In this document: one piece after another, positions 25,873-57,658 of the stretch
Numbering within the stretch: position 1 is the stretch's first letter
Layout of the letters: the number at the start of each line of letters is the position of its first letter
Assembly (NCBI GenBank): GCA_024742875.1
Contig: JANSXP010000011.1
Span: 86,493 to 150,492, forward strand
DNA length: 64,000 nucleotides
Reading direction: 5' to 3'
Source of the DNA: Planctomycetaceae bacterium
GTDB taxonomy: Bacteria; Planctomycetota; Planctomycetia; Planctomycetales; Planctomycetaceae
Made by a program: the position numbers and the translations under genes
The notes under the pieces: generated by a model
Database searches by the model: none
Told to the model about the DNA's origin: nothing
The model's input: the letters and a program-made list of their open reading frames with translations, nothing else

Positions 25873-27351
25873 CTAGAAGCGGCGTTCCAGCTGGATCATC
25901 GTCTCAGAGCGGAAGCCACCATTGTTGATCAGCGGAATGACGTGCCCCGCTCTGACGTGCCAGGAATCGGCCAGCTGCAGCTGCAGACCAAACGTCATGT
26001 TGAGCCACGTGGGCTGAGGATCAATATCCTGCAGATCGGCCACCACGGCGGTGTCTGCGTCTCCAAAGAATCCCCCGACGGTTCCGCCGGGAGCCGTGGA
26101 CGGCGTCAATGCAGTTGTCGCCCGAAACTCCAGGACGCCCGACAGACTTCGGATCCATGCGCCGCGCGGCTGACGGTACATCTGCCAGCCCACCTGAGCA
26201 TCCAGTGAGGCCAGAATCGATTCCCGGTAACTGCCAAAACGCCCGGACTCCGGAGCAAACACCAGAAAGGAGGGTTGCTCTTCAAAGAAGAAATCATCGT
26301 CATCGACAGGCACATCCAGCTGCGTGTGCAGCTGAAAAAAGACGTTCTCTGCCGGGGCTGCCAGAAACGCGAGAAATGGAATGATATTCAGCGTCTCATT
26401 GGTGATCGTGTAGTTAACATCGGCCAGATTGCCTTTGACATCACCGGCAATGGGGATACTCAGTCCCACACCACCGGACAACAGATAATTGCGTTCCTCC
26501 GCCAGGATCTGCTTGTAGATCACGGACAGGTTCCCAAAAACTTCCCGCGATGCGGACTGCGAAGTCGTTGGGCCAAAGATGGGGTCTGTCAGCTGGCTGC
26601 CCGTTGACGGTGCACTGATCATCGGCAGGCGAAATTCCAGCGACGCGTCCTCACCGACCGTCAGAAACTCGGCACCGATCGTGGTCACAAATACGGACTC
26701 ACGACGACTGAACTGTCCGAGACTGGGGTTGGAGCTGTCTGCAATTTCCGCGCGGAACAACTCATGAAAATAGTGCGTCTGCACAAAAATTCGGTGCCGC
26801 GGAATCGGGCTGAAGTTGTCGGAAATTTTCAGCCTCGGCCCACCGCCAATCATGGGGTTCTGGATTTCTCCAGGGATCGGACTGAGGATCTCCGGAGAAC
26901 CAAGGTTGGCGCCAGCGACCTGCGGCAAAACGAATGAGAGCGCCGGAGGTGTCTGGAAGAAATCGCCAAACATGTTGGGCGCGCGAGCAAGTCGGATGCG
27001 ACCGCGCGAGGCACTCGCTGATCGCCTGCGGCTGGCCAGAGAGGAAGGTCGACGTCCCGCGGCCGATGTCGCTCCGGATCGCTGTGGCGTGCCGGCTGAT
27101 GGCCCGGTGGGTGCCGTCGCGTCAGACGGAGAACGGGGAGTAGCCGGTGACGCCGCCTGCGGTCGAGCGGGACCTGGTGGCGCCGTGCGTGGAACGGGGC
27201 TGCGTTCGTCCGGCTGACCAAACTGCGGGGTCAGCAGACGGATTCCCGGATTGGAATCTTGCGGTGGGGGGGGCTGTGCGCTGCACTCCACCAGGCAAAA
27301 CGTCAGCACACAAAAGACGACGCGCGCGGATGTGAGTGGTTTGTATCGCAC
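25873..27351 (-). CDS. Probable outer-membrane beta-barrel protein with Pro/Ala/Ser-rich N-terminus
   Basis: 492 residues with a signal peptide (VVFCVLTFCLVECSAQ), a low-complexity Pro/Ala/Ser/Arg-rich part (about 25-125), and then a long stretch of alternating hydrophobic and polar residues. The protein ends in LERRF; a C-terminal phenylalanine is the usual insertion signal of outer-membrane beta-barrels. Phrases such as RIFVQTHYFHELF, ASLEFRLPMISAPS, NYLLSGGVGLSIPIAGD and WLNMTFGLQLQLADSWHVRA read like barrel strands. No named family is recognised. It is the last gene on the strand that carries the kinase and caspase-like genes, 233 nt downstream of the kinase, so membership of that operon is likely but not certain. 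Confidence 0.8.
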   Translation of the reverse strand: MRYKPLTSARVVFCVLTFCLVECSAQPPPPQDSNPGIRLLTPQFGQPDERSPVPRTAPPGPARPQAASPATPRSPSDATAPTGPSAGTPQRSGATSAAGRRPSSLASRRRSASASRGRIRLARAPNMFGDFFQTPPALSFVLPQVAGANLGSPEILSPIPGEIQNPMIGGGPRLKISDNFSPIPRHRIFVQTHYFHELFRAEIADSSNPSLGQFSRRESVFVTTIGAEFLTVGEDASLEFRLPMISAPSTGSQLTDPIFGPTTSQSASREVFGNLSVIYKQILAEERNYLLSGGVGLSIPIAGDVKGNLADVNYTITNETLNIIPFLAFLAAPAENVFFQLHTQLDVPVDDDDFFFEEQPSFLVFAPESGRFGSYRESILASLDAQVGWQMYRQPRGAWIRSLSGVLEFRATTALTPSTAPGGTVGGFFGDADTAVVADLQDIDPQPTWLNMTFGLQLQLADSWHVRAGHVIPLINNGGFRSETMIQLERRF

Positions 27352-27584
27352 AAAACTGGCCCCTGAATATCCCTCAATACTCTGTTTCTTCGGTCGGGAA
27401 ATTCAGGGCAGGAACCCAATTCGCCAGAGATGTCAAACCGGTCTGGCGATTCCAGTCCCGGTCGGTCACAGTCGTCACAACTCTTACGCTGACGCCGACA
27501 CGTCCATCGCCACAACGCGAGCTTCGGCAGAATCTGCCGCTTCAATTCTCACAGCAGCTGTGGCGATTCAGGCGGCGATACTCC

Positions 27585-30014
27585 TCAGGGGCTGAGAAAC
27601 TCATCAATCAGTTCGCGTGCTTCATCGCGCAGCTGAAGCAGTTCCCCATCATCCGGCGTGCGCTGCAGAGCGGCTGTAGCCGTCTGCAGTACGGTATTCA
27701 GCAGCAGGGAAGCCGCCGCATCGTTCTTTCGATCGAGCTCAACCATTGCCAGCCGCAGGCGCGCGTCCAGCAGGAGAATGATGGTGGCATCGCCCGCCTG
27801 TTCCTGATGCACCCGAGTCAGACCTGCCAGAGCTGCCGTGAGCTCTTCAAAGGCCGCATCCATCTGTCCGTCTTCCTGCAGCAGGGAGGCGAGATTCATG
27901 CGAGCGACGGACGCGTCCACCGTGTAGTCGGTGACACTGGGGTTCTCCCGGGCAAGCTTTCGCAGTTCCGCTGTCGCCGTGCGATAGCTGTCAATTGCCG
28001 ACGTCAGATCACCGGACTCTGCCAGCAGGTCCCCGCGCAGCCGCAGACACAGCGCCAAACGCGAGCGATTCTCAAGGATTTCCGGAGCTTCGGTCACGGT
28101 ACGACGAAACGCCTGTTCGGCGCGATCGATGTACTCCAGTGCGGCGGCTGTCTCCAGTTCATCAAGTGCGAGGTTGCACAGATTGTAGTAACCCATTCCC
28201 AGATCCCGACGGGTTTCAAAGTGCTCGGCTTTTGCCAGAATCGTCTCACGTCGCTGCTGAGACTGCAGCATCAGGTCCATCGCTTTCGCTGTCTCACCTC
28301 GTTCCCGTTCAATGATACCCAGATTCATCTGGCTGCTGGCAACAAGTCGCTGCAGTCGCGGATCGTCGGTGCGCCGATCAACAATGGCCAAACGCACCTC
28401 CAGCGCCCGTCCGGCTGTCTTCAGGGCAGCGTCCGCTTCGCCGGTCAGCATCTGAATGCGGCTCAGCGCAGACAGTGTGTCCGCAAAAGACTCCGGCAAC
28501 TCGTCAGAATCGGGTGACTCTTCCAGCAGCAGTTCCTGAAGCTCGAGAGCCTGCGTCAGCGCCTCATCGGCCACACTCAGATCCGGATTCACAGCCTCTT
28601 CAATCAAACCAACGCGAAACAGGGTGGCCGCAAATTCCTCTCGCAGTGAGGCGTCTTCACGACGTTCCGCCAGGAACCTCCGGTAGTACTCCAGGGCGTC
28701 ACGCAGGAGTTCCTTCTGCAGCGGCTGCAGTCCCGGCTGATTCAACAGCCGATCTTCACTGACGCGGGTGAAATAACGGTCCACTGCCTGCCTGGCCATG
28801 GCGTAGTTTCGAATGGCGGCCTGCTTCTGCCGTTCTGACTCACGCAGGTTGCTTTCCGACTCGGCCGCCCGACGTTCGGCCAGCAGCGCGAGACGAGTGG
28901 AGACAACAGTCCCTGCTACCAGCGATCCGACAAAAGCCGCCAGGAGAGCTGCCACCGTGCGATTGCGCAGACACCACCGCCACATCGCCGTGAGGCGACC
29001 CGTCGGACGGGCCACCACCGGACGCCCCTGCACAAACCGCTGCAGATCCTCCGCGAGGGCCTGGGCTGAAAAATAGCGCTGCCGTGGTTCCTTCGACAGG
29101 CACTTCAGACAGACAGTTTCGATGTCGCGAGGCACACTGGGATTCAGGTCTCGCGGCGACACGGGCTGCTGCCGGACCACCTGGTCCAGTGTTTCCAGTG
29201 TGCTGGCCGCCTGAAACGGGGGGCGGCCGGTCAGCAGGAAATAGAGAATCGCACCCAGCGAGTAGATATCAGTGCCGGGGCCCTGCAGGTCGGTTCTGCC
29301 TGTCGCCTGCTCGGGCGCCATGTAGCCAGGTGTTCCCAGAATCTGACCGCTTTGCGTGAGGTTGTCGGAAGACTCAATCGACTTCGCCAGGCCGAAGTCC
29401 GTCACCATCGGCTGGCCTTCACGGGACAGCAGCACATTCTCCGGCTTGAGATCCCGATGAATGATGCTCTTCTGATGGGCATATCCCACGGCCTGACTGA
29501 CTTCAAAACACAGACGCGCCGCTTCCTTCGGAGGCAGCGGTCCGCCGGCCGCCTTTTCTTTCAGATTGGGACCTTCAATCAGCTGCATGGCATAGAAGTG
29601 CTGACCGTCCACTTCCCCAATTTCATAAATGGGGACGATGCCGGGATGCTGCAGCTGCGCGGCGGCTTCGGCTTCGATATAGAACCGCCGTATGTCCGCT
29701 TCGTCCGCCAGCGCGCCTCCCAGGACCATCTTGAGAGCCACGATACGCTTCAGTCGCGTTTCCCGCGCCCGAACAACAACCCCCATTCCCCCCCGCGCAA
29801 TCTCCTCAATGATCTCATAGCCACCAAAGACACGCGGCGAGATCGGGGGCGGTTCGGACGCAGCAGCGGCGGCACCACCATCCGTTTCCTGACGAAACAG
29901 GGCTGGCGATGAGGCGGTGATTTCCGGTGCTGCGGTGTCCGGTGAGTCAGAGGGAGTCTCTGTGCCGGGCACACGCCAGCGATCCGGATCTGATTCATCC
30001 GAGGCCCTGGGCAT
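27585..30014 (-). CDS. Membrane-anchored Ser/Thr protein kinase with TPR-like C-terminus
   Basis: 809 residues. After a Ser/Pro-rich N-terminus a Hanks-type kinase domain spans about 65-330: A-R-G-G-M-G (73-78), K95 in VALK, catalytic H186-R-D-L-K-P-E-N, D206-F-G and GTPGYMAPEQ. All catalytic residues are present. A single membrane helix (about 354-373, VAALLAAFVGSLVAGTVV) separates it from a long helical, tetratricopeptide-like C-terminus that would lie outside the cytoplasm. T6SS clusters often encode such a kinase (PpkA/ImpN/TagE) controlling assembly through an FHA protein. It begins 3 nt after the stop of the caspase/VWA gene, so it is cotranscribed with it. Confidence 0.94.
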   Translation of the reverse strand: MPRASDESDPDRWRVPGTETPSDSPDTAAPEITASSPALFRQETDGGAAAAASEPPPISPRVFGGYEIIEEIARGGMGVVVRARETRLKRIVALKMVLGGALADEADIRRFYIEAEAAAQLQHPGIVPIYEIGEVDGQHFYAMQLIEGPNLKEKAAGGPLPPKEAARLCFEVSQAVGYAHQKSIIHRDLKPENVLLSREGQPMVTDFGLAKSIESSDNLTQSGQILGTPGYMAPEQATGRTDLQGPGTDIYSLGAILYFLLTGRPPFQAASTLETLDQVVRQQPVSPRDLNPSVPRDIETVCLKCLSKEPRQRYFSAQALAEDLQRFVQGRPVVARPTGRLTAMWRWCLRNRTVAALLAAFVGSLVAGTVVSTRLALLAERRAAESESNLRESERQKQAAIRNYAMARQAVDRYFTRVSEDRLLNQPGLQPLQKELLRDALEYYRRFLAERREDASLREEFAATLFRVGLIEEAVNPDLSVADEALTQALELQELLLEESPDSDELPESFADTLSALSRIQMLTGEADAALKTAGRALEVRLAIVDRRTDDPRLQRLVASSQMNLGIIERERGETAKAMDLMLQSQQRRETILAKAEHFETRRDLGMGYYNLCNLALDELETAAALEYIDRAEQAFRRTVTEAPEILENRSRLALCLRLRGDLLAESGDLTSAIDSYRTATAELRKLARENPSVTDYTVDASVARMNLASLLQEDGQMDAAFEELTAALAGLTRVHQEQAGDATIILLLDARLRLAMVELDRKNDAAASLLLNTVLQTATAALQRTPDDGELLQLRDEARELIDEFLSP

Positions 30015-30017
30015 GAG

Positions 30018-33000
30018 TTACTCAGTCGGTATCAGCAGACCATTGTCGCTGGACACCGGAACGATCACGGGAGTGAGTGTGTGAAGTGCGTCCTGCTCCA
30101 CGTCTTCTCTGAGGATAAACTCCAGTGTTCCATTCGCCAAGGGGATCCCGTCGGAAGGCTGGAATTCAAAGACAGTGGAAACCACCCGGTTGTCACGATC
30201 GGTCCGCTGTCGACGCACAAAGGCCACCGGTTTCGGCGTCGCCAGCTGTATCACGAGGGAATCGACTCCCGGCGAACCAGCGCCGTGCTGCTCCACCACC
30301 GTCAGCCGAGCCAGCTGGCGATCGGCGATGACATAAACCATCACACCATTGATCCCCGCAGGCGTTTTCACCAGAGGCTGCGCGTCCGGCAGCGGCTTCA
30401 GTTGCGAAAGTGCGAGCTGATCGACAGGCGGCGCCCGTTGCGGTCGGACAAACAGTCGCACTTCGGCTTGTTTCGCATCGGCGGGCCAGTTGCCGGCCGT
30501 TATTCCCACGGCTGGCACGGGCGTGCCCGGCAGCCATCCGAACGCGTCGCAGTCATAGGATTCTCCGACGCTGCGTCCCATCTCGTCAAGAGGCGTCAGA
30601 CGCACGTGCAGACTCGTCGGTCGTGCCGGCAACCCACCACGCGGGTCCTGAACAGAAACGACCAGCTGGGCCGCCTGATCCTTCACGCGGACAGCCTGAG
30701 TCGCACATTGCAGACCGGAATCACGCCCCGTGCCGGTCTCCGTCAGTTCCGACCACCGAGGAGTCCCGGTTGTCCAGCGGGGGACTTCCAGACGACGCCC
30801 ATCATCACTGAGTTTCCATTTCAGCGCTTCGCCACCGTGCAGAAGGAACTTTGCGGTCGCCTCGCCCATGTTGAGGGAAACCTGTTCGGCGCCCGCATCT
30901 ACGGAAACGGTCACATCACGCCCGGGAGCAGAACTCACCAACTCACCGCTGGCACGACGCAGCACAAATTCGTCGGACTCCATCAGCCCCGACAGCGAAG
31001 AAAGCAGCTCTGTCAGATCGCTGGCTGTTTGAAACTGACCACCGCTGGCTCTGGCGATCGTCTGGAATTCCGATTCCGCCTGTCCGGCTTCTGCCCGCGA
31101 AATCTGATAGCCAACGATATCCACCCGCACGCCCTCCGGCAGTGCACCGAGCACATCCTGCAACGTCCGCTTTCTGGCCGCTGAGGGATTGGTCTGTCGA
31201 TTCACACCATCCGTGAGCACAACCACACGACGTCCCCTCCGCACGTCCTCAGATTCCAGTGCGCTGAAGGCGTCGGTCAAAGCGAGGTACAGCGGCGTTT
31301 CGCCCCAGGGACGCAGACTGGCCAGCAAAGGCGCAACGGACTCCAGTGTGCCGGCATCAAAGCGCCCCACGGGCAGCGCCATCTCGACATCGTCCCAGGG
31401 CCTCAAATCACCGGGAACACTGTGAAGATAGCCATCATTGATCAGCATCTGCTGTGGGTTCTGCGGATTCCAGCCGACACGATGACCAAAAAACATCAGG
31501 CCCAAACGTGACGTGGCTTTCGCCGCCTGCCCATGCAGCAGATGGGACAGGGCCCGCAAACCCACCTGAAACCGCGTCTGCTCGCTGCCCGCCACTTCGG
31601 CGCGCACAGCGGTCGCCATACTCTGAGAGCAGTCAAAGATCACGACAATTGACTGACCGGCCGCCGCCTGTCCCTGCACATCCACGGTGGCTGCTCTGAC
31701 GGCCGGCATCTGCATTGACGACTCGGCACCTCCTGCCCGACTCACCAGCACCGGCTCGCGAATCATGTTGCCCCGAAGATTGGCAACGGCAAAGACCTCG
31801 GACGACGCCTTGAGAATTCCGGCTTCCGTGAGACGCAGACGCCCCGTCAGATCGGCTGCCATCGCTCCGGTTTGCGGAATCAGAGGCAATGGCTCGGCAT
31901 TAGACAGGACGGTGTTGTCGGCATCGGCAAAGTACAAACTGCCGGCCAGCGGACTCATGCCAAATCGCTCCAGCGGACCGTTGGAGCGCACATGCACATC
32001 CACGGCATCAAGCTGCGTCGAACCCAGCAGCAGCACACTGCTGGTCCTGACATTCAGGCCTTCGGTCAGCAGGCGGCGGCGGCGATTCAGCAGCCGGTTC
32101 ATGTCAATCAGCTCTCGCTGCAATGCAACAGACTCACCCTGCTGCCCTCGAAAAGACGTCAGCAGGCGCGTGGTCGTTTCCGCAAAGTAGGGCTCACCGC
32201 CCGCCACAGCCGGGCCGTAGAAGTCATCGAGCGTTCGCTGGCACAGATCCAGCGTCTGCACGTCGCGATCCAGCCGCTGCCGAGCGGCAATCGTGTTGAC
32301 AAACCCGCTGGGGACAAAGAGCGGTGCAATCAGCCTCAAACGGAACTCAGAATTGATCAGCTGCTGCCGGTACTCGCTGATCTCCGGCTGACTGCCGTTC
32401 AGAGCGCTGCGGCACGAATCGTAAATCTGCTGCAGTTCCACGCGAAACTGCAGTGTTCCCGCCTGTGCCATCAGACGACCGGTATCCGTATCACGCTCCG
32501 CCGAACTGTTCTGCACGGCCAGCAGATTCTGCACGAGCGCTTCTTCCTCAGGCGAGCGTCCCGTTTCCTGCCCGCGCCCGTCGCCCTCTGTCAGGTCTGT
32601 GTTGCTTGCGCGGGCGGCGATGGCCTCATCCAGCCGGCTGCGCAGCTGCTGCCGCTGCGCGGCCCCGGTGGTACCGCTGACCGGATCGGCAGCCGGCAGC
32701 AATGGCAACTCCAAAAGGGCGCGCGCCCGCTGAATGTCTCTGGTACTGGCGGTCATATCGCGCAGCAGAATAGCGTACTCCGCATTCAGTTCGTCGTGAT
32801 GGGATCGGAGTTGCTGCTGCACCTGGGCGGTTGGAGTGGTGAATGGCAGGACGGCCAGACTGGCCAGCTGCGAACGACTGTCACTCAATCCGGCCGCCAG
32901 ACGGTGTGTGGACTCCATCAATTCCAGCAACTGTTCGCTGGACGATTCTGCAGACGCTGCTTTCCAGCGAGTCCACCACACCAGTTCCGACAGCGAGGTT

Positions 33001-34679
33001 GCCAGAGCGTGGACCGCCTCTCGGGTCCTGTCGGATCTGTCTGCCGCCAGCCGATAAGCATCGGCCGCGGTGCGGAACCCGTCCCGCGCGTTGCGTCCGG
33101 TCAGCAGGGCGTCCTCAGCCTGGCGACGAGAGGCGTCTGCCAGGTTCAGTTGCGAAACACACCAGGGAAGGCGGCCGGCCGGAATGTCGTTCCAGGTGGA
33201 TTCGGCAAGCGCCCGTGTGGTGATCGCCTCCCGAACCAGGCCGGAGAATTTCCAGCACGCGCTGCCCTTCTGCTGCGACAGCAGCGAGGCAAACTGGAAG
33301 GTGGGGGATAGCGCGCGGTCGGAGTCGGCAGGAATCTGCTGCATCGCACGCGCCAATTCGCCGGCGGTCGCCGCACTGGCGGCCGCCACTGTGGCCAGTC
33401 GCACACTGTCGGAGCGGTCTTCACGAGTTGCTGCCGCCAGCTCAGCTTCCAGATGGCTCATCTTCAAGCTGAGTTGACTGGACTCTATCGCCGCCTCGGT
33501 CCGGCAGGCGGCGCCGCTTTGCACCAGCTTTTCCAGACGCAGCAAACGGGCCTGAATACCGGCCCAGGCAACTGGCAGGGCTATCTGCGGCTGCTCGGCG
33601 GCAAGCGTTTCATAACGACTCCACAGCGATTCCAGGTCGGCAGCCGGACCGTCTGTCAGCGGCTTGACAGTGGGATGCGGCAGTTCTGTCGAAACCCAGC
33701 TCACGATGTAGTCATCGCCTGGGCTGAGATCGCCGCTGATAAGCTGAACCGTCTGCCCGAGACCATACACCGACCGCGCATACCCCGAGACATTCTGCGT
33801 TACGAAGGCGGTCAGTTCCCGCAGTGAGACATAGTGGTCTCCGTTGCCTGTGGGATGGCGGTCTGCACCGCCCCGCAGCCCTTCTACGAAGTAGTAGCCG
33901 AAGCTGCTCTGGTGACGACTGCCAAGACCCAGTGACTGTTCGCCCGTGCTGCACGAAGTCATCACCGTAAGATTTTTCACCGGCTCAGCCTGCAGCTCTG
34001 AGCGCACCGCCTCGACAAATCGATTGGTGACCTCAGCGCGATGCCAGTTGGCAACGTGCCGATGGCAGTCTATGACCAGCATGACGGGACAGGATTCAGA
34101 TCCACGACTGGAAACAACCTGCTCCACAACATCCGCAAATGGAACCCAGGTTGTCGAATCCAGCGGTGACGCGCCCGGTGGAATCAAAGCCGGACGGCCG
34201 GACGGATCAGTGTCCACATGCAGGCTGAGATACACGATGAACGGCTCATCGTTCCGGACTGAGCGACCTGCCGCCCGCGACAGTCGATCCAGTTCTGCAA
34301 GGAACTGTTCACGACTGTCAATCCCCTCGGTGGCGTCAAACAGAGTCAGCGTATCCGCATCAAGATGACGCAGTGCCTGCAGATCCTCGAACGCCCAGCC
34401 ATTGGGTTGAAACGGGGCTTCGTACTGCGTGGCCATGATGGCCACCACCGGCGTTTGACGGGGACGAAACCTCATCAGCCAGACAAATCCCAGGGTCATG
34501 CCCAGCAGCAGAGCAACGGACACGACCGATCGGGTCATCGTCCGCCAGGGACGCGTTGCGCCGCGCTGCCGGGCGGACCGCTTCTGCCAGCGATGCTTCA
34601 CGGAGCGGCCCGATCGCGTGCGACCACGCCAGTCCGCGCGACCGGATTTCGCATTCTCGTTCTGGCGTCCGCCTGACAT
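30018..34679 (-). CDS. Giant single-pass protein with intact caspase-like and von Willebrand A domains
   Basis: 1553 residues. A strongly basic N-terminus (about 20 Arg/Lys in the first 50 residues) precedes one membrane helix (51-69), predicting a cytoplasmic start and a large periplasmic body. Residues about 75-315 resemble a peptidase C14 (caspase-like) domain: strand FIVYLSLH with H154, then PVMLVIDC with C205, 51 residues apart as expected for the dyad, followed by TSCSTGEQSLGLG and YVSLRELTAFV. A long helical middle follows. A von Willebrand A domain starts near 1008 (VVIFDCSQSM, D1016-x-S-x-S metal site; VVVLTDGVN). The C-terminal 350 residues look beta-rich. Caspase activity is inferred from the two residues only. 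It sits among T6SS-linked genes, 50 nt after the lipoprotein gene. Confidence 0.9.
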   Translation of the reverse strand: MSGGRQNENAKSGRADWRGRTRSGRSVKHRWQKRSARQRGATRPWRTMTRSVVSVALLLGMTLGFVWLMRFRPRQTPVVAIMATQYEAPFQPNGWAFEDLQALRHLDADTLTLFDATEGIDSREQFLAELDRLSRAAGRSVRNDEPFIVYLSLHVDTDPSGRPALIPPGASPLDSTTWVPFADVVEQVVSSRGSESCPVMLVIDCHRHVANWHRAEVTNRFVEAVRSELQAEPVKNLTVMTSCSTGEQSLGLGSRHQSSFGYYFVEGLRGGADRHPTGNGDHYVSLRELTAFVTQNVSGYARSVYGLGQTVQLISGDLSPGDDYIVSWVSTELPHPTVKPLTDGPAADLESLWSRYETLAAEQPQIALPVAWAGIQARLLRLEKLVQSGAACRTEAAIESSQLSLKMSHLEAELAAATREDRSDSVRLATVAAASAATAGELARAMQQIPADSDRALSPTFQFASLLSQQKGSACWKFSGLVREAITTRALAESTWNDIPAGRLPWCVSQLNLADASRRQAEDALLTGRNARDGFRTAADAYRLAADRSDRTREAVHALATSLSELVWWTRWKAASAESSSEQLLELMESTHRLAAGLSDSRSQLASLAVLPFTTPTAQVQQQLRSHHDELNAEYAILLRDMTASTRDIQRARALLELPLLPAADPVSGTTGAAQRQQLRSRLDEAIAARASNTDLTEGDGRGQETGRSPEEEALVQNLLAVQNSSAERDTDTGRLMAQAGTLQFRVELQQIYDSCRSALNGSQPEISEYRQQLINSEFRLRLIAPLFVPSGFVNTIAARQRLDRDVQTLDLCQRTLDDFYGPAVAGGEPYFAETTTRLLTSFRGQQGESVALQRELIDMNRLLNRRRRLLTEGLNVRTSSVLLLGSTQLDAVDVHVRSNGPLERFGMSPLAGSLYFADADNTVLSNAEPLPLIPQTGAMAADLTGRLRLTEAGILKASSEVFAVANLRGNMIREPVLVSRAGGAESSMQMPAVRAATVDVQGQAAAGQSIVVIFDCSQSMATAVRAEVAGSEQTRFQVGLRALSHLLHGQAAKATSRLGLMFFGHRVGWNPQNPQQMLINDGYLHSVPGDLRPWDDVEMALPVGRFDAGTLESVAPLLASLRPWGETPLYLALTDAFSALESEDVRRGRRVVVLTDGVNRQTNPSAARKRTLQDVLGALPEGVRVDIVGYQISRAEAGQAESEFQTIARASGGQFQTASDLTELLSSLSGLMESDEFVLRRASGELVSSAPGRDVTVSVDAGAEQVSLNMGEATAKFLLHGGEALKWKLSDDGRRLEVPRWTTGTPRWSELTETGTGRDSGLQCATQAVRVKDQAAQLVVSVQDPRGGLPARPTSLHVRLTPLDEMGRSVGESYDCDAFGWLPGTPVPAVGITAGNWPADAKQAEVRLFVRPQRAPPVDQLALSQLKPLPDAQPLVKTPAGINGVMVYVIADRQLARLTVVEQHGAGSPGVDSLVIQLATPKPVAFVRRQRTDRDNRVVSTVFEFQPSDGIPLANGTLEFILREDVEQDALHTLTPVIVPVSSDNGLLIPTE

Positions 34680-34729
34680 GACTTGCGACCTCTGAAAACC
34701 GATTGCCCAGGATCAGGCTGGGCGTCCAA

Positions 34730-36535
34730 CTACCGTTCGTCAAGTGGACGAGCCGCCTGACGGACACTGCGATCCAGGACACGAATCAGAAACAGTCGAT
34801 CCCGCGTCACAAAGACGGGGCTGCACGTTCCGATGTCTGCCGTCTTTAACACCTCACGCAGTTTGGCGCTGGGCACCTCGCTGATCGGTACCAGCCCCGA
34901 GGTGCGAATTCTCAGTCGCGACTTGTCGACATTGACCATGGGGTCAGGCACGCGGCGATTCACCAGTCGCCAGATCTCATTCATCATCGCCAGATCCCGC
35001 TCACGTTCGACATCGGTCGTCTGCAGTTCCATTTGCTCCCAGCTGACGTGCAGTTCGCCCGAAGGTTTTCCTGCGTTTGATCGCGCGGGGATCGGTTGCC
35101 TCACTTCGGCTGAGACCATCTGGATGCGAGAGTCTGCACTGCGTGGAGGTGTCGCCACCGGCACGGCCTGCAGTGGTTCCTGCTCACGCACGGCCAGCTG
35201 CAGCTGATCACGAAATTCGTACTCGGCACTGGCGGCTGCCACGAGAGCTTTCTGCTCCGCCTCCTGTCGAAAGCGTTCCGCCAGAAAGGACCGAAGCATC
35301 GCTTTCTTGCGGGTCAGCGGCAAAGTGGGATCGATGGTCGCATACCACTCGGTCACCAGTTCATTCACTTCGAGGGGGTCACCCGTTTGAACGGTTCCGG
35401 AGCCGATCGGCCCTGTTGCTTGACGTGCTGCCTTACGACCGCCGTGAGGGTCAGTCACATTGTTCTCAAGATCGCCGCCTCCAATACTGTGTCCCGTTGG
35501 GGCTGTCTGGCGGGTGGACGTGGCTGCCACTGGCGGTGCGGGCTGCCCCCTGGCGGGCCGTGCTGCGGGAGGCACGTCACTGGTGACGATGGCTGCAGGT
35601 TGATGGTTTGATCGGACGGATGCAGGCTGGGCGCTGGTCGTCGGGCCCCCGCTCTCGGGCGCTGTAAATTCTCGATCGGCCTTTGATTTGGCCGCTGATG
35701 TGGCCCAGTCTTCAGGTGGCGGCGGCCCCTCAATTTCCGGGACCGGAACGGTGATATCGGGCCCGCAGTAAGTCAGGGCGATCCTGGCCACCCGGCGAAT
35801 TCTGGCAGAAGGTTCCCGCGGACAGCAATCGTCGCCCTGATCGTCTGACATCTCCCGCAGGCGGGCTCGGATTCGCGGACTGCAGCAGGCCCCGTTTTTG
35901 CAGAATGTGCACGGCTGCCCGGCCGCCTCTTTGACGGCCTTCACCGCGGCGTACCTGACATCTTCGGTGCAGTCATCCATGGCCGCCAGCAGGGCGTCCT
36001 CCACTTCGGGGTAACATCCTCCACAGCCAATCGACGCCAGATAATTCAGAGCCAGAATCTTTTGCTGAGCCTGATCTTCTTCCTGTTTGATTTTGGCGGC
36101 TGCCGCCACAGCCGGACTGGGTGACTCCAGATTTTCGGGACTGCTGACCGGTGAAACGGGGGGAGGTCCCTGTGCTCCAGGGAACGCCGTTTCCAGGGCA
36201 GGGAACATGCGGTGCACGAGTCGCCGCAGGGCACCAAACCCCTCGACGGTGTGCTGCTTGCACTGATCGATCCCCAGAAACTGGGGCAGTGTGGGCGGTG
36301 GACCGACGGCTGGTGCCGCGGCGATGTAGACATCCGCAGGACCGGCCGCTGCCGCGGGAGCCACGGCTGATGCCCCCGTATTTCCGGAAGTCGCACAACC
36401 GGTGATCGCTGTGAAAAGCAGCAGCACGGTCAGACAAAGCGCTCGCGACGGGAAAACGGGCGCACGCTTAAGCGGCACCGCTGCGGAGACAGTGAACCAG
36501 CCCACCTTTCCTATCTTAGCAATGCGCGGAATCAT
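34730..36535 (-). CDS. Cysteine-rich HEAT-like lipoprotein
   Basis: 601 residues from ATG 36535, which has AGGGGG 10 nt upstream; a TTG at 36571 is in frame but lacks a site. The N-terminus is a lipoprotein signal with lipobox ITG-C47. A helical HEAT-like part (about 155-260) holds ten cysteines in 87 residues (C171, C174, C189, C209, C212, C217, C218, C237, C238, C257), including IGCGGCYPEVEDALLAAMDD and VRYAAVKAVKEAAG. A low-complexity Pro/Ala/Thr stretch follows, then a conserved-looking C-terminal part (about 390-600; VNELVTEWYATIDPTLPL, RRVPDPMVNVDKSRL). The paired cysteines suggest metal binding or disulphides. It may be an outer-membrane-anchored partner of the neighbouring giant proteins. 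Family not named. Confidence 0.85.
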   Translation of the reverse strand: MIPRIAKIGKVGWFTVSAAVPLKRAPVFPSRALCLTVLLLFTAITGCATSGNTGASAVAPAAAAGPADVYIAAAPAVGPPPTLPQFLGIDQCKQHTVEGFGALRRLVHRMFPALETAFPGAQGPPPVSPVSSPENLESPSPAVAAAAKIKQEEDQAQQKILALNYLASIGCGGCYPEVEDALLAAMDDCTEDVRYAAVKAVKEAAGQPCTFCKNGACCSPRIRARLREMSDDQGDDCCPREPSARIRRVARIALTYCGPDITVPVPEIEGPPPPEDWATSAAKSKADREFTAPESGGPTTSAQPASVRSNHQPAAIVTSDVPPAARPARGQPAPPVAATSTRQTAPTGHSIGGGDLENNVTDPHGGRKAARQATGPIGSGTVQTGDPLEVNELVTEWYATIDPTLPLTRKKAMLRSFLAERFRQEAEQKALVAAASAEYEFRDQLQLAVREQEPLQAVPVATPPRSADSRIQMVSAEVRQPIPARSNAGKPSGELHVSWEQMELQTTDVERERDLAMMNEIWRLVNRRVPDPMVNVDKSRLRIRTSGLVPISEVPSAKLREVLKTADIGTCSPVFVTRDRLFLIRVLDRSVRQAARPLDER

Positions 36536-36621
36536 CGCGCGAATTCCCCCTAATCGTTGGCGTCGTGCCAAGAAGTACTATCGGTACAATCGGCACCCCA
36601 CTTAACGGCAGGGGCGACTAT

Positions 36622-39600
36622 CTAGCGCAGGTCAAGGTCGACCCTGTGTCGTGCGGGCGGTGGTGCAACTGTGACATCCGCCTGTTTTTCGCGTTTGAGT
36701 CCTCGGACAACAGCGAACGCCGTCAGCGTGTACTTTCCAACTCGGACATCCTTCAGCCAGAAATTTCCCAACTCATCGGTCACGACCGGCTCTGGGACAG
36801 GCAGTTGCTGCTGGTTCTCCGAGGCTGGGGCATTGGGATCGGCCGGCTCCTCGAGCGCGGGCGGCGCGAGGGAAATCCTGCATCCTGCCACGGGCTGCCC
36901 GCCGTAGAGAATGGTTCCGCGAATGTCGTTGACAGCTTCGGCCTCCATCCGGGCAGCCTGCTCAGCGGAAATGACACGGATGGCACGCCGGAGCGGAACA
37001 CTGCGATTCCCCGCTCGATCTGTCGCCTGCAGCAGAACGATGGCCGGGCCTGGCGTCAGACCGGTCGTGTCCGCTGTGCCCACCCACCGACCGTCCGTCA
37101 GTTGCAGTGGCACCGGGGCGGGTGTCTCCAGCATGGTCCGAGAATCTGCTGCGGCAAAACCGGCAAGCACCTGCTCAATGCCGCTGGAATCTCCATCGCT
37201 GCCGCTGGCGACGACCATCAACGGTGCGCCCACTGCGACGCGTTCTGCGGGAACTGTCCCCAATTGGGTCAATCGTGGCGGCGAGCCGTCAAAACACAAA
37301 GGCACCGCAGAACTCCAGACCGTGCGGTCCGCCATCCGCAGTTGCGCCAGCAGGTTGACATTCGAGCGAAATCGTGCGACCGGCAGTTCAACGACCAAAG
37401 GAGCCACACGAGAGCCGAGTCGGAAATCACCGTCATCCGTCAGGCCGTCCCACAGCACCTGAATGGACTGCGTGTTACGAACGATCAACGGCTCATCGTC
37501 GGCGAGTTCACGGTCCCGATTGGCGTCAATACCCAGCGCGAGCTGATCGTCGGCTGTGCCAGGAAACCCGGGCGGCGCTGCCACGTCCAGTGAAACAGAA
37601 ATGGATGCTGCTGGAGCCGCGATGGCCGCTTGTGGTGCGGGATCCAGAATGCTTACAGCGAGGGTCTGGTCGTCCGGCAGCAGGCGACCATCTCCGCCGA
37701 CCTCGTTCAGCAGCCAGGCAAAGGCGCGATGGTGCCCATTAACAGACAGCTCGACAACCGACTGACCTGCCGCGGGCGTTGCCCGCAACTGCACAGAGTC
37801 TTGTTGGCCGCTCAGGGTCCCGGCGATCACTCCCGTAGCGCCGGCAGGACGAAATCCCAGCTCCAGCCGCACGGACTCTGAGGGCAGCCGCTGGGCATCT
37901 TCTGCAGCAACCTCCACAATCACTTCGCCGGTCAGCGGGTCACGACGAGCCTGCGCCTTCAGAAATCGGCGAGGGTGCTGGACGGCGACAGGAAAGTGAA
38001 ACATGCTGATGGTGCCATTTCGTTTATCTGTCAGGCTGAGAATCAATCCGTGGTCAACGGCGACGGCAGGAATCGGTTCCGACGTCACGGCCGGCTCGGC
38101 CTCTGATTCCGTGGGCTCCGCCGTTCCCGCAGATTCATCGGCCGATGATTCGGCGGGCGAAGCCTCTCCGGTTTCAGGGAGTACAAAAGGAAGGGCGACT
38201 GTCTGCCTGGCTGCCAGGCTCACGTCCGCAACGGCCAGCGGCTGCGGCTCAGCGTGATTTTTGCGCCACGCCAGCCCCGCCTCGATGGACATAGCGAACG
38301 ATGGCAGATCAGGCAGTGGGCCTGCTGCCGCGAGCAACTCAGCCTGCAGGACCGTTGCAAAGTCCACTTGCGATTGCAGCTGAAAGGCAAACGCGGTCGT
38401 TGTATTGGGAAACGCACTCAAAAGGGTTGGGCGTCTCTGATCGACAGTCCCCGGTGTCCCGGTCAGCCGGGGAAGCACCGAATGCTCCCGGGGAATTTCC
38501 AAAGGCACGTCAAACCGATAATTCTGATCTGCCGTCTGCAGCCGCAGGGTCAACCACGTTGGCTCTGTTGTTCCGGCGACACAGGTTAACGTGAGAGGCA
38601 CGTTTCGGCGGCCCCCCGCTGGGACAATTACGGTCGGCACAGACAGCAGAGGATCAGCGTCCAGAGGGTAGGCGCCGCGTTCCAGCAGGCGGACGAGTTC
38701 ATCAATGCGTGGCTGATCGGACGAATCGCGATTGACCGCATGGGCACGCAGCAGATCCTGCAGTTCCCGCTGACGCTCACGCTGACGCATGCGACCGGAC
38801 CTGCGGACACGTTGCGCGGTGACGGTCTGAAATCCCGGACTGCTTTCCAGGCGAATGCGGCCTTCATCCACTTCCGTCATCATCCTGACCGCAACCTCTT
38901 TGGTCCCGGGGTTCAGCAGCTGCACCGGCAGCCGAACAGTGTCTCCCACGGCAAGAGGCACCATGACCGGCAGTTCGACTTTCAGCAGAGGGTCCAGACT
39001 GGCTGCCGCCTGATCAGACAACTGCGCATGGAGATGATCGACCTCGAATGACGGAGCGTCCTGCAGGGCCAGCTTGACTCGTTCCAGCTGCAGCCGAGTC
39101 TGGGCCGACTGCAGTGTCTGCTGCTGCAACTGCGACAAAGAGGGGCTCAACGGCAGCTCGACACGACTGGTTTGAATGACGGGCAGCAGTGCGAGGGCTG
39201 AGGTCAGTGACAGTTCGGACAGACGTTGAGTCGGCCCGGTGGCCAACCGTTCAGCCGGCCGTTCGTCAGAGTACGAACGGCGAACTTCTGCGGCCAGCCG
39301 ACTGTGCATCGACCGCAGACCGCGGGCGAACTGGTTCCATCCAGAAGCGTCGGCATCCTGCCCAAGCGCATGATATTGCTCGTCCAGCCGTGCGTACTGC
39401 TCGTCAAGTTCGACGTGTCCCAGAGTCATCAGACGACAGCGCAGCAATTCCAGTTCCGCATGCTGGCGAATGATGTCAGCCGGCAGACGCGTGCGACTGA
39501 CTTCTCTGGGGCGCTGGGCGGACACCGCTTTGACCTCTGACGGCGCGGCAGAAATGTTCTGCAGCGCGGACAGAAGCTGACCGCGCTGTGCACTCGACAG

Positions 39601-42000
39601 TTGTGGGCTGTCCAGCAGAATCTGGATCCGGAATTCCTGCCACGTGGAGAGGCGACCGCCCACCGACTGAACGGTTGCCGCACGTGCCGCAGCCAGCAGT
39701 TCCTCCGATCGCCGAAGACCGTCCATCAGGTCGCGCACATGTGCGACGTCGGAGCTGACGGACCATGGCTCAATCAACACCACCAGAAGCTGTTCAAGCA
39801 GCTGCAGGTGGTCTTTCAGGCGGAAATAATCCACAGACGTGACGATCCGCGAAGACGCCTGGCAGCGAAAATCGCGAATGTCATCCGGAATCCTCCACAG
39901 GGCGTTCACCAGGACGTGCCGTGCCTGATGCAGCGTTTCCGCCGTGGCCAACAGATCCTCCAGCTGTCGTCGGGCCACCGTGATCAGCTGCAGAGCCTGC
40001 TTTTTCGGCGTTCGCTCGGGAGCAAAAACCAACTCCCGCTCAATCCCCAGCCGCCGTCGTTCCGCGGCCAGCAGCGCGGCGTCCAGTTTGCCGGGTACCA
40101 GAGCGCAGGCAGCCGCCGCCCGATCCGCCTGGAGTCTGAGCTGCAGCAATCCGGAGACCTGCTTCCAGTCAAGGCGATGATCCTGCAGCAGTCGCTCCGC
40201 AAACGCCTGCTCCCGCGTCACGAATGATTGGGGGGGCAGATCTGCCAGCCACGCGGCAAGCGGCTGGCTGTCAGGTTGGCGCACCAGCTGTTCCAGCTGC
40301 CGGATCTGTGCCAGGTCTTCGGCGTTTGCCTGCCAGCCCGCTGATTCGGTCAGCTGCAGCTGGCCGGCCGGCGAAATCGCGCTCGAGACCGCGATGGAAC
40401 CTGGCCATAACGCGGCCAGTTCCCGCATGGCCTGACTGGTGCCTGCATCAATAGCGGGGAGCTGATCTGCGCCCTGCCAGACGTCACTCAAAGCGGCGGC
40501 CGCTGCCTGCGACGTGTCTTCGGCAGCGTAAATGACGGCCGCCTGACGGCGTCGCAGCATCGCCTGCAGCAAACGAAACCGGAGAGGGGCAAATGTCACG
40601 GGAGAGACCGCCTGCTCGGCAAGCAGGTCACGTGTTTGCCAGGCCTGCAGCAGAACGGACCATGCCGGGTTTTCGCCAACGCTGGCGATCGGGGTGTCCG
40701 ACCGATCAACATCCCCGGAATCATCGGCTGCCACTGCAGCTGTGCCCGAATCTGCCTGACTGTCAGACGGTTTTTCGTCCTGCACTGCGGCGTTCTGTTC
40801 GCTGGCAGCAGGCGTCTGTGTGTCGACCTGTTTCGCGGACGCTTCGGCGTCCTGTTGAGAATCGTCAAACTGGTCCCGCGCAGGCTCCAGAGCGGCAACC
40901 GCGTTTGCAACGGAACGGGAGGCGATCATCGGCCGCAGCACGTGAAACAGCACGGATGCTGTTTCGGAATTGTCTGCGGGAGGCGGCGACGGCTCCGCGT
41001 CGGCTGGCGGCCGCTCTTCTGCCGCTGCAGCCGAATCCTCGTCTGGCTGCCACGTGCGATTGAGGGCAAGGATTTCAGGACTGTCGGCCCAGTTGATCCG
41101 CCCGAAATGAAACAGCTGCGGCGTCTGAGAAAGTCGCCCCGCACTTTTTTGCTCAATCCATTCGGCCGTTTGCTGATTCGTAAATCGGTAGGCCTCCACA
41201 ACCGTCAGCGAGCCGTCGCGGTCGTGGTCGGCCAGCTCACTGAGCGCCTGAGAGAACATATGCGCAAACACCGACTGACCGAGACTGCGACTAAAATGAC
41301 TGGACTCGAAATCGGCGCGGCTCGTCATCACCCACAGTGACGGATCACCGACCTGGTCGACCTGAGCCTGCAGCTGCGTGACGAATTGATTGACGAGCGT
41401 CCCGTGTGACAGGTCATAGGGCACCGAACCGCAATCGAGTACCAGCAGCTTCGCCGCACAGGGCCGCTGGCTGAGCATTCGCAGAAGATCGATCACCGGC
41501 AGCGTCGTTTCTTTCGTCCATTGAGGATCAAACTGCCACCGCAGATGCGGCGTCCCGTCGGACAGCAGACCATCCGCTTTGACATAGGTGATCACTACGT
41601 CAGACGGACTGTCGATGCCGGCGCTGATCTGCTCGGCCAGACGACTCAGTTCGTCGCGAACCGCCAGACGCGATGCCAGCGTCACACGATCTGCCTCCTG
41701 CTCTGTCCGGCGAAGTGTGGGGGCCGTTGCACGGAGCGACTGCAGGTCGGACGACTGATAGGCCATGGGGTCCGGGGCCCGCGGATCAAGGGGGTCCTGT
41801 CCCTGCACAACAAAAATGCCCGTGGCCGTCGACTGCAGCGGCCGCGAGAGCAGCTTCATGAAGCCCAGCAGCAGCGCAATTAACAGGCCCGCCCAGAACA
41901 GTCGCTGAGCCAGTCGGCGAATCGGCGAACCGGCTCTGTGAGGACGAGCCGGAAGCCACGCGTGTTTTCGCTCAAGAGGTGGCTGACGCTGAGGTAGCAT
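36622..42000 (-). CDS. Giant single-pass protein with degenerate caspase-like domain
   Basis: 1792 residues. A basic N-terminus and one membrane helix (about 33-50, LFWAGLLIALLLGFMKLL) are followed by a caspase-like domain (about 60-300) with the same plan as the 1553-residue neighbour: strand VVITYVKADG, then KLLVLDC with C190, then LWVMTSRADFESSH. The catalytic histidine position holds Lys/Ala, so it should be inactive. A perfect EF-hand calcium loop, D258-H-D-R-D-G-S-L-T-V-V-E269, lies inside this domain. A long helical middle follows; the C-terminal third is beta-rich with an Ig-like part (GPAIVLLQATDRAGNRS) and ends in a carboxypeptidase-regulatory-like domain (IRGTILYGGQPVAGCRISL … VRVGKYTLTAFAV). 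It is likely a structural or regulatory periplasmic protein. Confidence 0.88.
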   Translation of the reverse strand: MLPQRQPPLERKHAWLPARPHRAGSPIRRLAQRLFWAGLLIALLLGFMKLLSRPLQSTATGIFVVQGQDPLDPRAPDPMAYQSSDLQSLRATAPTLRRTEQEADRVTLASRLAVRDELSRLAEQISAGIDSPSDVVITYVKADGLLSDGTPHLRWQFDPQWTKETTLPVIDLLRMLSQRPCAAKLLVLDCGSVPYDLSHGTLVNQFVTQLQAQVDQVGDPSLWVMTSRADFESSHFSRSLGQSVFAHMFSQALSELADHDRDGSLTVVEAYRFTNQQTAEWIEQKSAGRLSQTPQLFHFGRINWADSPEILALNRTWQPDEDSAAAAEERPPADAEPSPPPADNSETASVLFHVLRPMIASRSVANAVAALEPARDQFDDSQQDAEASAKQVDTQTPAASEQNAAVQDEKPSDSQADSGTAAVAADDSGDVDRSDTPIASVGENPAWSVLLQAWQTRDLLAEQAVSPVTFAPLRFRLLQAMLRRRQAAVIYAAEDTSQAAAAALSDVWQGADQLPAIDAGTSQAMRELAALWPGSIAVSSAISPAGQLQLTESAGWQANAEDLAQIRQLEQLVRQPDSQPLAAWLADLPPQSFVTREQAFAERLLQDHRLDWKQVSGLLQLRLQADRAAAACALVPGKLDAALLAAERRRLGIERELVFAPERTPKKQALQLITVARRQLEDLLATAETLHQARHVLVNALWRIPDDIRDFRCQASSRIVTSVDYFRLKDHLQLLEQLLVVLIEPWSVSSDVAHVRDLMDGLRRSEELLAAARAATVQSVGGRLSTWQEFRIQILLDSPQLSSAQRGQLLSALQNISAAPSEVKAVSAQRPREVSRTRLPADIIRQHAELELLRCRLMTLGHVELDEQYARLDEQYHALGQDADASGWNQFARGLRSMHSRLAAEVRRSYSDERPAERLATGPTQRLSELSLTSALALLPVIQTSRVELPLSPSLSQLQQQTLQSAQTRLQLERVKLALQDAPSFEVDHLHAQLSDQAAASLDPLLKVELPVMVPLAVGDTVRLPVQLLNPGTKEVAVRMMTEVDEGRIRLESSPGFQTVTAQRVRRSGRMRQRERQRELQDLLRAHAVNRDSSDQPRIDELVRLLERGAYPLDADPLLSVPTVIVPAGGRRNVPLTLTCVAGTTEPTWLTLRLQTADQNYRFDVPLEIPREHSVLPRLTGTPGTVDQRRPTLLSAFPNTTTAFAFQLQSQVDFATVLQAELLAAAGPLPDLPSFAMSIEAGLAWRKNHAEPQPLAVADVSLAARQTVALPFVLPETGEASPAESSADESAGTAEPTESEAEPAVTSEPIPAVAVDHGLILSLTDKRNGTISMFHFPVAVQHPRRFLKAQARRDPLTGEVIVEVAAEDAQRLPSESVRLELGFRPAGATGVIAGTLSGQQDSVQLRATPAAGQSVVELSVNGHHRAFAWLLNEVGGDGRLLPDDQTLAVSILDPAPQAAIAAPAASISVSLDVAAPPGFPGTADDQLALGIDANRDRELADDEPLIVRNTQSIQVLWDGLTDDGDFRLGSRVAPLVVELPVARFRSNVNLLAQLRMADRTVWSSAVPLCFDGSPPRLTQLGTVPAERVAVGAPLMVVASGSDGDSSGIEQVLAGFAAADSRTMLETPAPVPLQLTDGRWVGTADTTGLTPGPAIVLLQATDRAGNRSVPLRRAIRVISAEQAARMEAEAVNDIRGTILYGGQPVAGCRISLAPPALEEPADPNAPASENQQQLPVPEPVVTDELGNFWLKDVRVGKYTLTAFAVVRGLKREKQADVTVAPPPARHRVDLDLR

Positions 42001-42089
42001 GGTGCAATGGCCCGTGACTGGAATCGACGAATCTTAGATCCCGTCGTCCATCCGCGAAAGCGGAATCCCGGACGAGCATCGGGCTGCCG

Positions 42090-42989
42090 TTACCCGGTCA
42101 TGGCCAGTCCGGCCGTCAAACAGTCGACCATCGCCGCAGAGGGGTCCGGCTGACCGGTGCCATACGCCAGCGTGGTGATCGCGCCCCGCGACGCCGTGGG
42201 AGGCATGCTCCGGGGAGGCGGCGGCGCATCATCGGCGGGATCGGCCGCTGCGGGACACCACAGGAGCGCGTGTGCCACCCACCAGAGGACGCCATCGTCA
42301 GCGATGGTTTCAACCAGCGATCGGATTTCCGTCAGCCGTTCCGCATCACTGGTCAGACACCACTGTCCGGCCGCGTCCAGCAGCCGCTGTTCCTCAATGG
42401 ACAGGTCCGTCACCAGCCGCTGGACGGATTCCACCAGCCATTGCACATTGACCACTGGCGGCAGCACCCAGCCCAGAAACTGCACTGCATCGAGATGGCG
42501 ATCCGCGTCCATGAACGCTGCCACCACGGCGGACACGGATCCGACATCGTCGGGCGGCACGTCCAGCGGGCGCAAAGCCAGCGCCGCAAGATCGGCGTCC
42601 AGATCAAAGGGCTGCAGTTCCAGCGGCTCCACCGTTTCTTCGTCAGCCTTCGACGGGGAGCGACCACTCGGATCGTCTTTTTCCGATGGATCATCCTCCA
42701 CACCTTCGACTTCGACGTGAAAGACTGTCTGCCCGGCCTGCAACTGCTGTCCGTCACGCAGTATTCCAGAGGTGCGCGGCTTGCCATTGAGCTGAATCTG
42801 CGCCCCATCAACCGCGTTCACCGTAGGACTTTCGTCACAGAAGCTGACAACAAAGTGGATTCCGAGCAACTCTGGATCGCCCGAGACCGCGTAGTCAGCC
42901 CACTCGGTGCTCCCAATTCGGACCTGCTGGCCTTTACGAATCAAGACCGTCGCGCCAGCGCGGTTGACGGGTTTCAGCAGCACGTGCAT
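42090..42989 (-). CDS. Degenerate FHA-domain protein, T6SS-associated
   Basis: 299 residues from ATG 42989 (AAGGG 9 nt upstream; a TTG lies just before it). Residues 1-100 have the FHA pattern of strands (LIRKGQQVRIGSTEWADYAV, LLGIHFVVSF, IQLNGKPRTSGILRDGQQLQ, GQTVFHVEVE), but the phosphothreonine-binding arginine of the usual GR turn is serine (RIGS27) and the S-x-x-H motif reads LGIH. An acidic linker leads to a C-terminal helical part (about 150-260, FMDADRHLDAVQFLGWVLPP), which recalls a small family (DUF6931) found near T6SS genes; that match is from memory. FHA proteins (TagH/ImpI/Fha) act with the T6SS kinase. This is the first gene of the minus-strand operon, divergent from tssA. Confidence 0.78.
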   Translation of the reverse strand: MHVLLKPVNRAGATVLIRKGQQVRIGSTEWADYAVSGDPELLGIHFVVSFCDESPTVNAVDGAQIQLNGKPRTSGILRDGQQLQAGQTVFHVEVEGVEDDPSEKDDPSGRSPSKADEETVEPLELQPFDLDADLAALALRPLDVPPDDVGSVSAVVAAFMDADRHLDAVQFLGWVLPPVVNVQWLVESVQRLVTDLSIEEQRLLDAAGQWCLTSDAERLTEIRSLVETIADDGVLWWVAHALLWCPAAADPADDAPPPPRSMPPTASRGAITTLAYGTGQPDPSAAMVDCLTAGLAMTG

Positions 42990-43257
42990 CAATAGGCCCT
43001 TCGTCGGATTTCCTCAAACGCCGTTTTATCAGCAAAACCGGCAAACTGACAAGCCAGCGGGCCAGCAGGCCAGCAGGCGCCAACGGCCTCAGGATGACGG
43101 GGCAGGGCGGAATCTGGGGCGTTGGTAGCTTGTATCCCGATTGTCGCGGCCACGTCGGCCCCCGATTGGAGCATTCCCCTCACAGTTGTACTGGCGGAAG
43201 CCGATTGATATCACTCGTAATGTCTTGCAATCGACATTTTTCAGGGCCACCCAGTCA
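42990..43257. promoter_or_regulatory. Bidirectional control region between FHA gene and tssA
   Basis: The 268-nt divergent spacer must hold promoters for both large operons. CCGATTG occurs as three direct repeats (43137-43143, 43162-43168, 43201-43207), and CAATCG, its inverted core, at 43228-43233, giving an inverted pair around TGATATCA (43206-43213). This is a plausible regulator-binding arrangement. The left part contains imperfect CCAGCAGG repeats. No sigma-54 type -24/-12 box was evident. Confidence 0.4.
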
Positions 43258-44385: not shown

Positions 44386-44462
44386 CGGCGGGCCGACGCG
44401 TGCCCGGCACGCCAACGACACTTGGAACCTCCATTCCTTTTCACTTCAGAAGGGCCAAAGCT

Positions 44463-44969
44463 GTGGCAAGTATTCACGATAAGCTCAATCGCGTGCGCAA
44501 GCCTCGCGTTCATATCTCCTACGAGGTGGAAACCGGCGGGGCAATGGTGCAAAAGGAACTGCCTTTTGTGGCGGGCGTCATCGGTGACTTTTCCGGTGAC
44601 CCACAGGAGCCCCTGAAGCCGCTGCGAGACCGCAAGTTCATCCAGATTGACCGTGACAATATCAACGACGTCATGGCCCGTATGAACCCTGGCCTGAACC
44701 TGAAAGTGGAGAACACGCTCGCCGGTGATGGCAGCGAGATGGCCGTCGATCTGAGCTTCAAGTCGATGGCTGACTTTGAACCCGCTCAGGTCGTCCAGCA
44801 GGTCGAGCCGCTGAAAAAACTGATGGAAACCCGCGACAAACTGCGTGATCTGCTGACCAAAGTGGATCGCTCTGAGGATCTGGAAAACCTGCTGGAGCAG
44901 GTCCTGCAGAACGAGGGCGACCTGAAGAAACTGTCTGATGAACTCGGTAGCACAGGAGAAGACGCATGA
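44463..44969 (+). CDS. tssB: TssB, small sheath subunit (VipA/ImpB)
   Basis: 168 residues. The GTG at 44463 is chosen over the frame-extending ATG at 44400 because the family starts with [20 protein letters not shown] and an AGAAGG box lies 9-10 nt upstream. Hallmarks are [29 protein letters not shown] and [20 protein letters not shown]. TssB and TssC form the contractile sheath whose contraction drives the Hcp tube. The stop overlaps the start of tssC by 4 nt (ATGA), as usual for this co-folding pair. Confidence 0.97.
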
Positions 44970-57651: not shown

Positions 57652-57658
57652 CTGTCGC

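Follow-up and report, generated by a model that had tools for sequence, protein, structure and literature searches.

The pillar formed by TssJ and TssM is the textbook envelope channel of the type VI secretion system (T6SS). We compared it with a T6SS of a Planctomycetaceae bacterium, part of which is encoded in a stretch of 64,000 nucleotides (assembly GCA_024742875.1, contig JANSXP010000011.1, positions 86,493 to 150,492; hereafter the window), where T6SS genes are divergent from a minus-strand operon for two giant proteins (giants A and B), a HEAT-like lipoprotein and three further proteins. As in the TssJ–TssL–TssM arrangement of T6SSi, the planctomycete system has TssL and TssK, its baseplate and sheath are canonical, and its TssM homologue consists of two N-terminal helices followed by a cytoplasmic domain and a third helix. 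Unlike in T6SSi, its TssM stops at helix 3 and has no Walker A motif, TssJ was not found in the genome, and the giants and the lipoprotein are added. Since the machine parts (TssB/TssC sheath, TssE/F/G/K baseplate, Hcp, VgrG and ClpV) were all found, this is a known T6SS machine whose membrane complex, judged from sequence, is likely to be altered. We propose, with a probability of roughly 0.7, that giants A and B and the HEAT-like lipoprotein are the periplasmic and outer-membrane part of this complex and take the place of TssJ and of the TssM periplasmic half.

Other lineage-specific membrane complexes have been described. T6SSiii of Bacteroidota has no tssJ, tssL or tssM and uses TssNQOPR, whose lipoprotein TssR contains a vWA-like domain (PMC10781749); a separate study found T6SSiii only in Bacteroidetes (PMC4793230). 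TssNQOPR resembles the proposed planctomycete complex in that it is specific to a lineage and combines a lipoprotein with a vWA-like domain protein and with periplasmic proteins that have a single helix. However, the planctomycete system keeps TssL and half of TssM and so falls outside T6SSiii, which is marked by the absence of tssL and tssM; this comparison is one of descriptions, not of sequences. In Acinetobacter, according to PMC10564176, the T6SS likewise has no TssJ and has added lineage-specific envelope proteins, one of which, TsmK, has an enzyme-like fold without catalytic residues; unlike in the planctomycete system, the periplasmic domain of TssM is retained there. For planctomycetes, T6SS genes have been noted in Rhodopirellula baltica (PMC2660368; PMC5394234) and a Gemmataceae sheath has been listed (PMC9230969). 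In listings of open-licence literature we saw no account of a planctomycete T6SS membrane complex or of these giants.

Short TssM and the genes that occur with it

An earlier note on this DNA, made from its letters, had seen no tssJ, tssK, tssL or tssM in the window, but this does not hold for the genome as a whole. Profile searches of the whole assembly (8.18 Mb, 168 contigs, 98.1% complete) gave one match each for TssK (PF05936) and TssL (PF09850; E 7e-30 for the TssL/DotU domain), both on contig C126, outside the window. Adjoining tssK and tssL is a TssM frame of 552 residues, with two predicted helices near its N-terminus and a third four residues before the stop. It matches IcmF-related_N (PF14331, E 4e-11), and by its IcmF/TssM cytoplasmic-domain homology and predicted three-helix layout the protein belongs to the TssM family. 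No match was obtained in the assembly for PF06761 (TssM) or for TssJ (PF12790), a profile that a very diverged TssJ could escape. Of the intact tssJKLM set whose presence elsewhere would, according to the earlier note, have refuted its idea, the genome has tssK and tssL, together with a short tssM. With TssM lacking its periplasmic half and TssJ undetected, the usual bridge of the machine would be missing. A gene for an outer-membrane-like protein is divergent from tssK on C126 and runs off the contig. The window's contig, C46, has no end sequence in common with C126, and a join of the two was discarded.

The short TssM is a type, not a single broken gene. In seven related loci the tssM near giant A is complete, and in all of them it has the short form, of 452–596 aa (L008, L015, L040, L042, L048, L053 and L054; L048 and L054 are close copies), and in four further loci tssM is interrupted by the contig end. 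Aligned with long planctomycete TssM, the short protein matches its cytoplasmic part and its third helix (hhalign probability 99.2, E 1e-19); 4–53 residues follow the last predicted helix in 13 short TssM versus 561–1098 in 12 long TssM, two of the latter values being lowered by an extra predicted helix. We then turned to a census of 195 planctomycete genomes (one draw, at least 90% complete, searched with every model), in which TssK is present in 36 and the window's class is represented by 27 genomes, 12 with TssK and 15 without. The TssM profile found frames in 28 genomes, 12 of 542–611 aa, all in the window's class, and 16 of 1157–1683 aa, all outside it; it missed TssM in eight of the 24 TssK-positive genomes outside the class, and three of these eight contain PF06761 frames of 1133–1321 aa. 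The Walker A motif was seen in 0/12 short and 16/16 long TssM. Searches of the PDB by sequence and of plasmids gave no match for short TssM.

TssM is long (1410–1606 aa) at loci of other planctomycete lineages (L120–L126, L128 and L154). In a Pfam scan of five of these (L120, L121, L125, L126 and L128) its periplasmic part had no match, and their genomes gave none for TssJ (PF12790). Another membrane-complex variant may hide there.

Giant A was found in 12/12 TssK-positive and 0/15 TssK-negative genomes of the window's class and, by the criterion used, in none of the 159 TssK-negative genomes and none outside the class. This goes against the operon being common in planctomycetes that lack a T6SS, the other outcome by which the earlier note would have been refuted. 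For 10 of the 12 genomes the assignment was checked on both halves of giant A; for G188 and G124 it rests on one profile search. The lipoprotein, at E 7e-11 or better, is confined to the same 12 of the 195 genomes, and so is short TssM, with 0/15 in the TssK-negative members of the class. TssJ (PF12790) was detected in 13/195 genomes, all among the 24 TssK-positive ones outside the giant-bearing set, and in 0/12 giant-bearing genomes, G000 included. PF06761 was matched in 0/12 giant-bearing versus 9/24 other TssK-positive genomes. The C-terminal profile of giant B reached E <1e-15 in 7/12 and in 0/183 others. A relative of the outer-membrane-like protein beside tssK on C126 was found at E 4e-51 or better in 7/12 (G000, G078, G099, G124, G168, G089 and G160), and none of the other 183 genomes had a match stronger than E 1e-9. 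Giant A and the lipoprotein, of the proteins covered by the searches, follow the bridge-less state one to one; with giant B, they are proposed as the periplasmic and outer part. The idea of an alternative trans-envelope anchor, put forward in the earlier note, gains from this association with the T6SS and with a half-length TssM, but not in the form that included TssK and TssL, which are not replaced.

These counts depend on several choices. Five genomes (G038, G186, G016, G027 and G120) were not counted as having giant A; their matches (E 4e-18 to 6e-23) cover only the side of the von Willebrand factor A (VWA) domain (positions 234–575 of 793 in the model), and an N-terminal giant match was found in none of the first four and scored only as a 156-aa piece in G120. 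Leaving aside additional fragments in the 12 genomes, the remaining listed matches are short, lie on the VWA side and score E 8e-9 or weaker. Eight genomes at E 7e-5 or weaker were left out for the lipoprotein and eleven at E 1e-9 or weaker for the outer-membrane-like protein. One stop codon was read through in the giant A match of G192, a stretch that holds an intact 1773-aa frame, and one in the lipoprotein match of G188. Under its default filters HMMER overlooked some of the giant sequence in G176, G099 and G089, which an unfiltered run recovered. The first giant A and B labels came from profiles that mix the paralogues, so the assignments rest on C-terminal profiles, by which the L145 protein is a giant A.

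Could the giants and short TssM have been co-inherited in one lineage with no joint function? In a TssK tree of 48 rows (35 of the 36 census genomes and 13 loci; the TssK of G098, a fragment, was left out), the 25 giant-bearing systems lie on one side of a single branch with support of 100/98, L053 being placed inside this clade, and the single label change needed is what such a historical link would produce. Against it, neither giant A nor short TssM occurs in any of the 15 T6SS-negative relatives in the class, and in 5/12 genomes the giant gene lies in a cluster with tssM. We regard it as very improbable.

In those five genomes (G078, G168, G176, G099 and G124) giant A lies <5 kb from short tssM. 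The order giant, short tssM, giant A occurs in G078 and G176, the G176 cluster being ~2 Mb from tssK, and in G099 a large, weakly giant-like frame lies upstream of tssM. Among 53 loci found via giant A, 23 carry a core T6SS gene, which in 14 is TssK, L or M; for loci of at least 20 kb the proportion is 14/19. Binning errors may explain some of the record names (Deltaproteobacteria, Rickettsiales, Nealsonbacteria).

Predicted architecture of the giants and lipoprotein

Giant A (30018–34679, minus strand, 1553 aa) and giant B (36622–42000, minus strand, 1792 aa) are paralogous over about 740 residues, comprising a basic tail, a predicted helix, a caspase-like domain and a helical region. One N-terminal membrane helix is predicted in each (residues 48–66 and 30–48 respectively), as the earlier note had it. 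Beyond the shared part they differ: giant A continues with a VWA domain (about residues 1005–1236; 30972–31667) and beta domains, and giant B with a chain of immunoglobulin-like (Ig-like) domains and a C-terminal CarboxypepD_reg-like domain. The VWA assignment is supported by both the VWA profile and a fold with the DxSxS motif of a metal-ion-dependent adhesion site (MIDAS), which is invariant, and the two short matches of giant A in the PDB by sequence both fall in this part. Other giant proteins, of 1837–1959 aa, are encoded at L153, L155, L156 and L157; they have a C-terminal VWA domain like that of giant A and no giant N-terminal part, and their genomes are without the giant system.

The caspase-like label of the earlier note proved weak. 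In both giants the N-terminal domain (giant A residues 81–297, 33789–34439; giant B residues 84–277, 41170–41751) resembles the EACC1-associated caspase domain (NCBIfam NF047832) at E about 1e-5, but the 25.6 and 25.2 bits are far below the curated cut-off of 140, the dyad is not conserved and the context is a T6SS, so neither giant is placed in that family. At the aligned positions the catalytic His and Cys are present in 27/50 and 20/50 giant A sequences and in 10/32 and 6/32 giant B sequences; the window's giant A has the dyad, whereas its giant B is without the catalytic His. We rejected the giants as active (C14) proteases on these grounds. They were also rejected as a split-off TssM C-terminus, having no profile match to long TssM (probability 0.1).

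The predicted C-terminal models (mean predicted local distance difference test score, pLDDT, 86.5 each) bear on a different function, at the cell surface, where the giants would act as adhesins or recognize the target and so hold on to the prey for this T6SS, with the bridge built from other proteins. In parts, the giant A model is like VWA pilus adhesins and integrin headpieces, and the giant B model is like Ig-like adhesin chains; among the matches listed for both there is no TssM or TssJ entry, which does not count as evidence of absence. A surface adhesin is hard to reconcile, however, with the predicted inner-membrane anchor and its basic tail, with the conserved WRG-type motif of giant A (W[RKQ]G in the first 140 residues of 22/44 giant A sequences, shuffled mean 2.1, and of 4/22 giant B) and with the one-to-one association with short TssM. 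We consider this role improbable.

The 613-aa lipoprotein (34730–36571, minus strand, from a TTG start) has the lipobox ITGC with Cys59, bearing out the lipoprotein label of the earlier note. Its gene lies beside that of the outer-membrane-like protein in G078, and in G168 one 1351-aa frame (L140:4783–8838) joins the lipoprotein homologue (155–335) to the outer-membrane-like protein (1086–1318). The two are naturally fused there, which is a hint that they are partners.

In the window, the giant genes lie between genes for a kinase and an FHA-like protein. The Ser/Thr protein kinase (27585–30014, minus strand; PF00069 E 1e-46), with one predicted helix and a TPR-like region, was named correctly in the earlier note. 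Since kinases are too abundant in these genomes for a profile search to be informative, it is at most a putative member of the conserved module. The FHA label of the other product (42090–42992, minus strand) is weak (PF16697 E 3e-4, below cut-off), the firm match being to DUF6931 (E 1e-15); this protein is T6SS-linked in several related loci. In the threonine phosphorylation pathway PpkA/Fha/TagQRST a kinase, an FHA protein, a lipoprotein and a VWA domain, which PpkA carries, also occur near the T6SS. By analogy, the giants, lipoprotein, FHA-like protein and kinase might be a regulatory layer that senses the envelope and thereby governs firing, with short TssM and TssL as a sufficient minimal anchor, and the VWA domain of giant A fits this. 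Unlike in that pathway, however, the giants follow short TssM, giant A and the lipoprotein doing so in 12/12 genomes. In G078 and G176 giant A and the lipoprotein are clustered with tssM and no kinase was seen there with the profiles used, none of which was aimed at kinases. A sensor would also leave the loss of half of TssM unexplained. A regulatory layer, which the earlier note had raised as its alternative, is therefore unlikely, though the least improbable of the rival readings.

A possible replacement for the TssJ–TssM pillar

If the giants and lipoprotein do form the outer part of the complex, the inner-membrane ring on which TssK and the baseplate dock would be retained through short TssM and TssL, and the short basic tails of the giants would contact this ring. 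Their helical and beta domains may form pillars across the periplasm, with the caspase-like domains acting as building blocks rather than proteases, and the lipoprotein, joined by the outer-membrane-like protein where present, could hold the outer end as TssJ does. A more specific version, which we judge evenly balanced between right and wrong, is a distinct class of membrane complex in Planctomycetota, in which TssM is cut to a docking ring without the nucleotide-binding loop, duplicated single-helix giants (dead caspase folds, MIDAS VWA domain, Ig-like ladders) form a periplasmic barrel, and the HEAT lipoprotein and outer-membrane proteins close the outer membrane. A lineage in which the pillar has apparently been replaced, but TssL, half of TssM, the baseplate and the tail have been retained, would show which anchor parts are exchangeable. 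It would also provide, besides TssNQOPR, another way through the envelope without the TssJ and TssM pillar, both with a VWA domain, and it suggests a function for the giant caspase-like/VWA proteins of planctomycetes.

Several observations weigh against this replacement. As the giants have no profile similarity to long TssM, it is argued from distribution and topology, not from homology. The tree with its one label change means that the 12 genomes cannot be counted as so many independent events, and Fisher P values overstate the association because the genomes are related; independent weight comes from T6SS-negative relatives that have none of the parts, such as G018 (genus g2). In 7/12 genomes giant A and tssM are apart, by ~50 kb in G129, G188 and G192, by 424 kb in G089 and on different contigs in G000, G065 and G160, and in 5/19 long giant A loci no core T6SS gene lies within range. 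Outside the seven genomes with a significant C-terminal profile match, giant B is backed by the unfiltered search in three (G168, G078 and G176) and weakly in G099, and the outer-membrane-like protein was not found in 5/12 giant-bearing genomes. The extracytoplasmic location of the giants rests on hydropathy and tail charge, and the lipobox is clear in 11/20 members of the lipoprotein family, with Gly-Cys at that place in two more. Finally, nine TssK-positive genomes outside the class have a TssM of 1431–1683 aa, no PF12790 match and no giants, so the lack of TssJ is not by itself a reason to expect giants.

The operon and T6SS genes of the window

The six minus-strand open reading frames span 25873–42992, as the earlier note had listed them, and their packing fits the operon it described: from the FHA-like gene to the kinase gene the gaps are 3–89 bp, with 233 bp before the last gene. 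The listed start codons of the FHA-like gene and tssA are separated by 148 bp. The last gene (25873–27351, minus strand), which had been labelled a beta-barrel, encodes a putative outer-membrane protein; the match behind this label is weak (PF01203 E 9e-4, below cut-off) and the fold is putative. Its relatives adjoin giant A in L025 and tssK in L142. It was rejected as a relative of the outer-membrane-like protein of C126, the best match (E 0.04) being to a low-complexity stretch.

On the plus strand, Pfam matches identified TssA, TssB, TssC, a second TssC, TagJ/ImpE, TssE, TssF, TssG and ClpV at 43141–55028, and VgrG at 60604–62541. The two TssC (VipB) genes are adjacent (44966–48132), as they are in L006, L040, L042, L138, L141 and L154, which suggests a sheath with two large subunits. 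Between ClpV and VgrG (55142–60478) lie eight consecutive Hcp-domain genes, two on the plus and six on the minus strand, encoding 165–282 aa and all above the Pfam cut-off. This is many for one T6SS locus, and they possibly encode different tube subunits or Hcp-linked cargo. A methyltransferase gene with MethyTransf_Reg and PKMT C-terminal domains (62534–63991) adjoins VgrG on the opposite strand at the end of the contig, which is also the end of the window.

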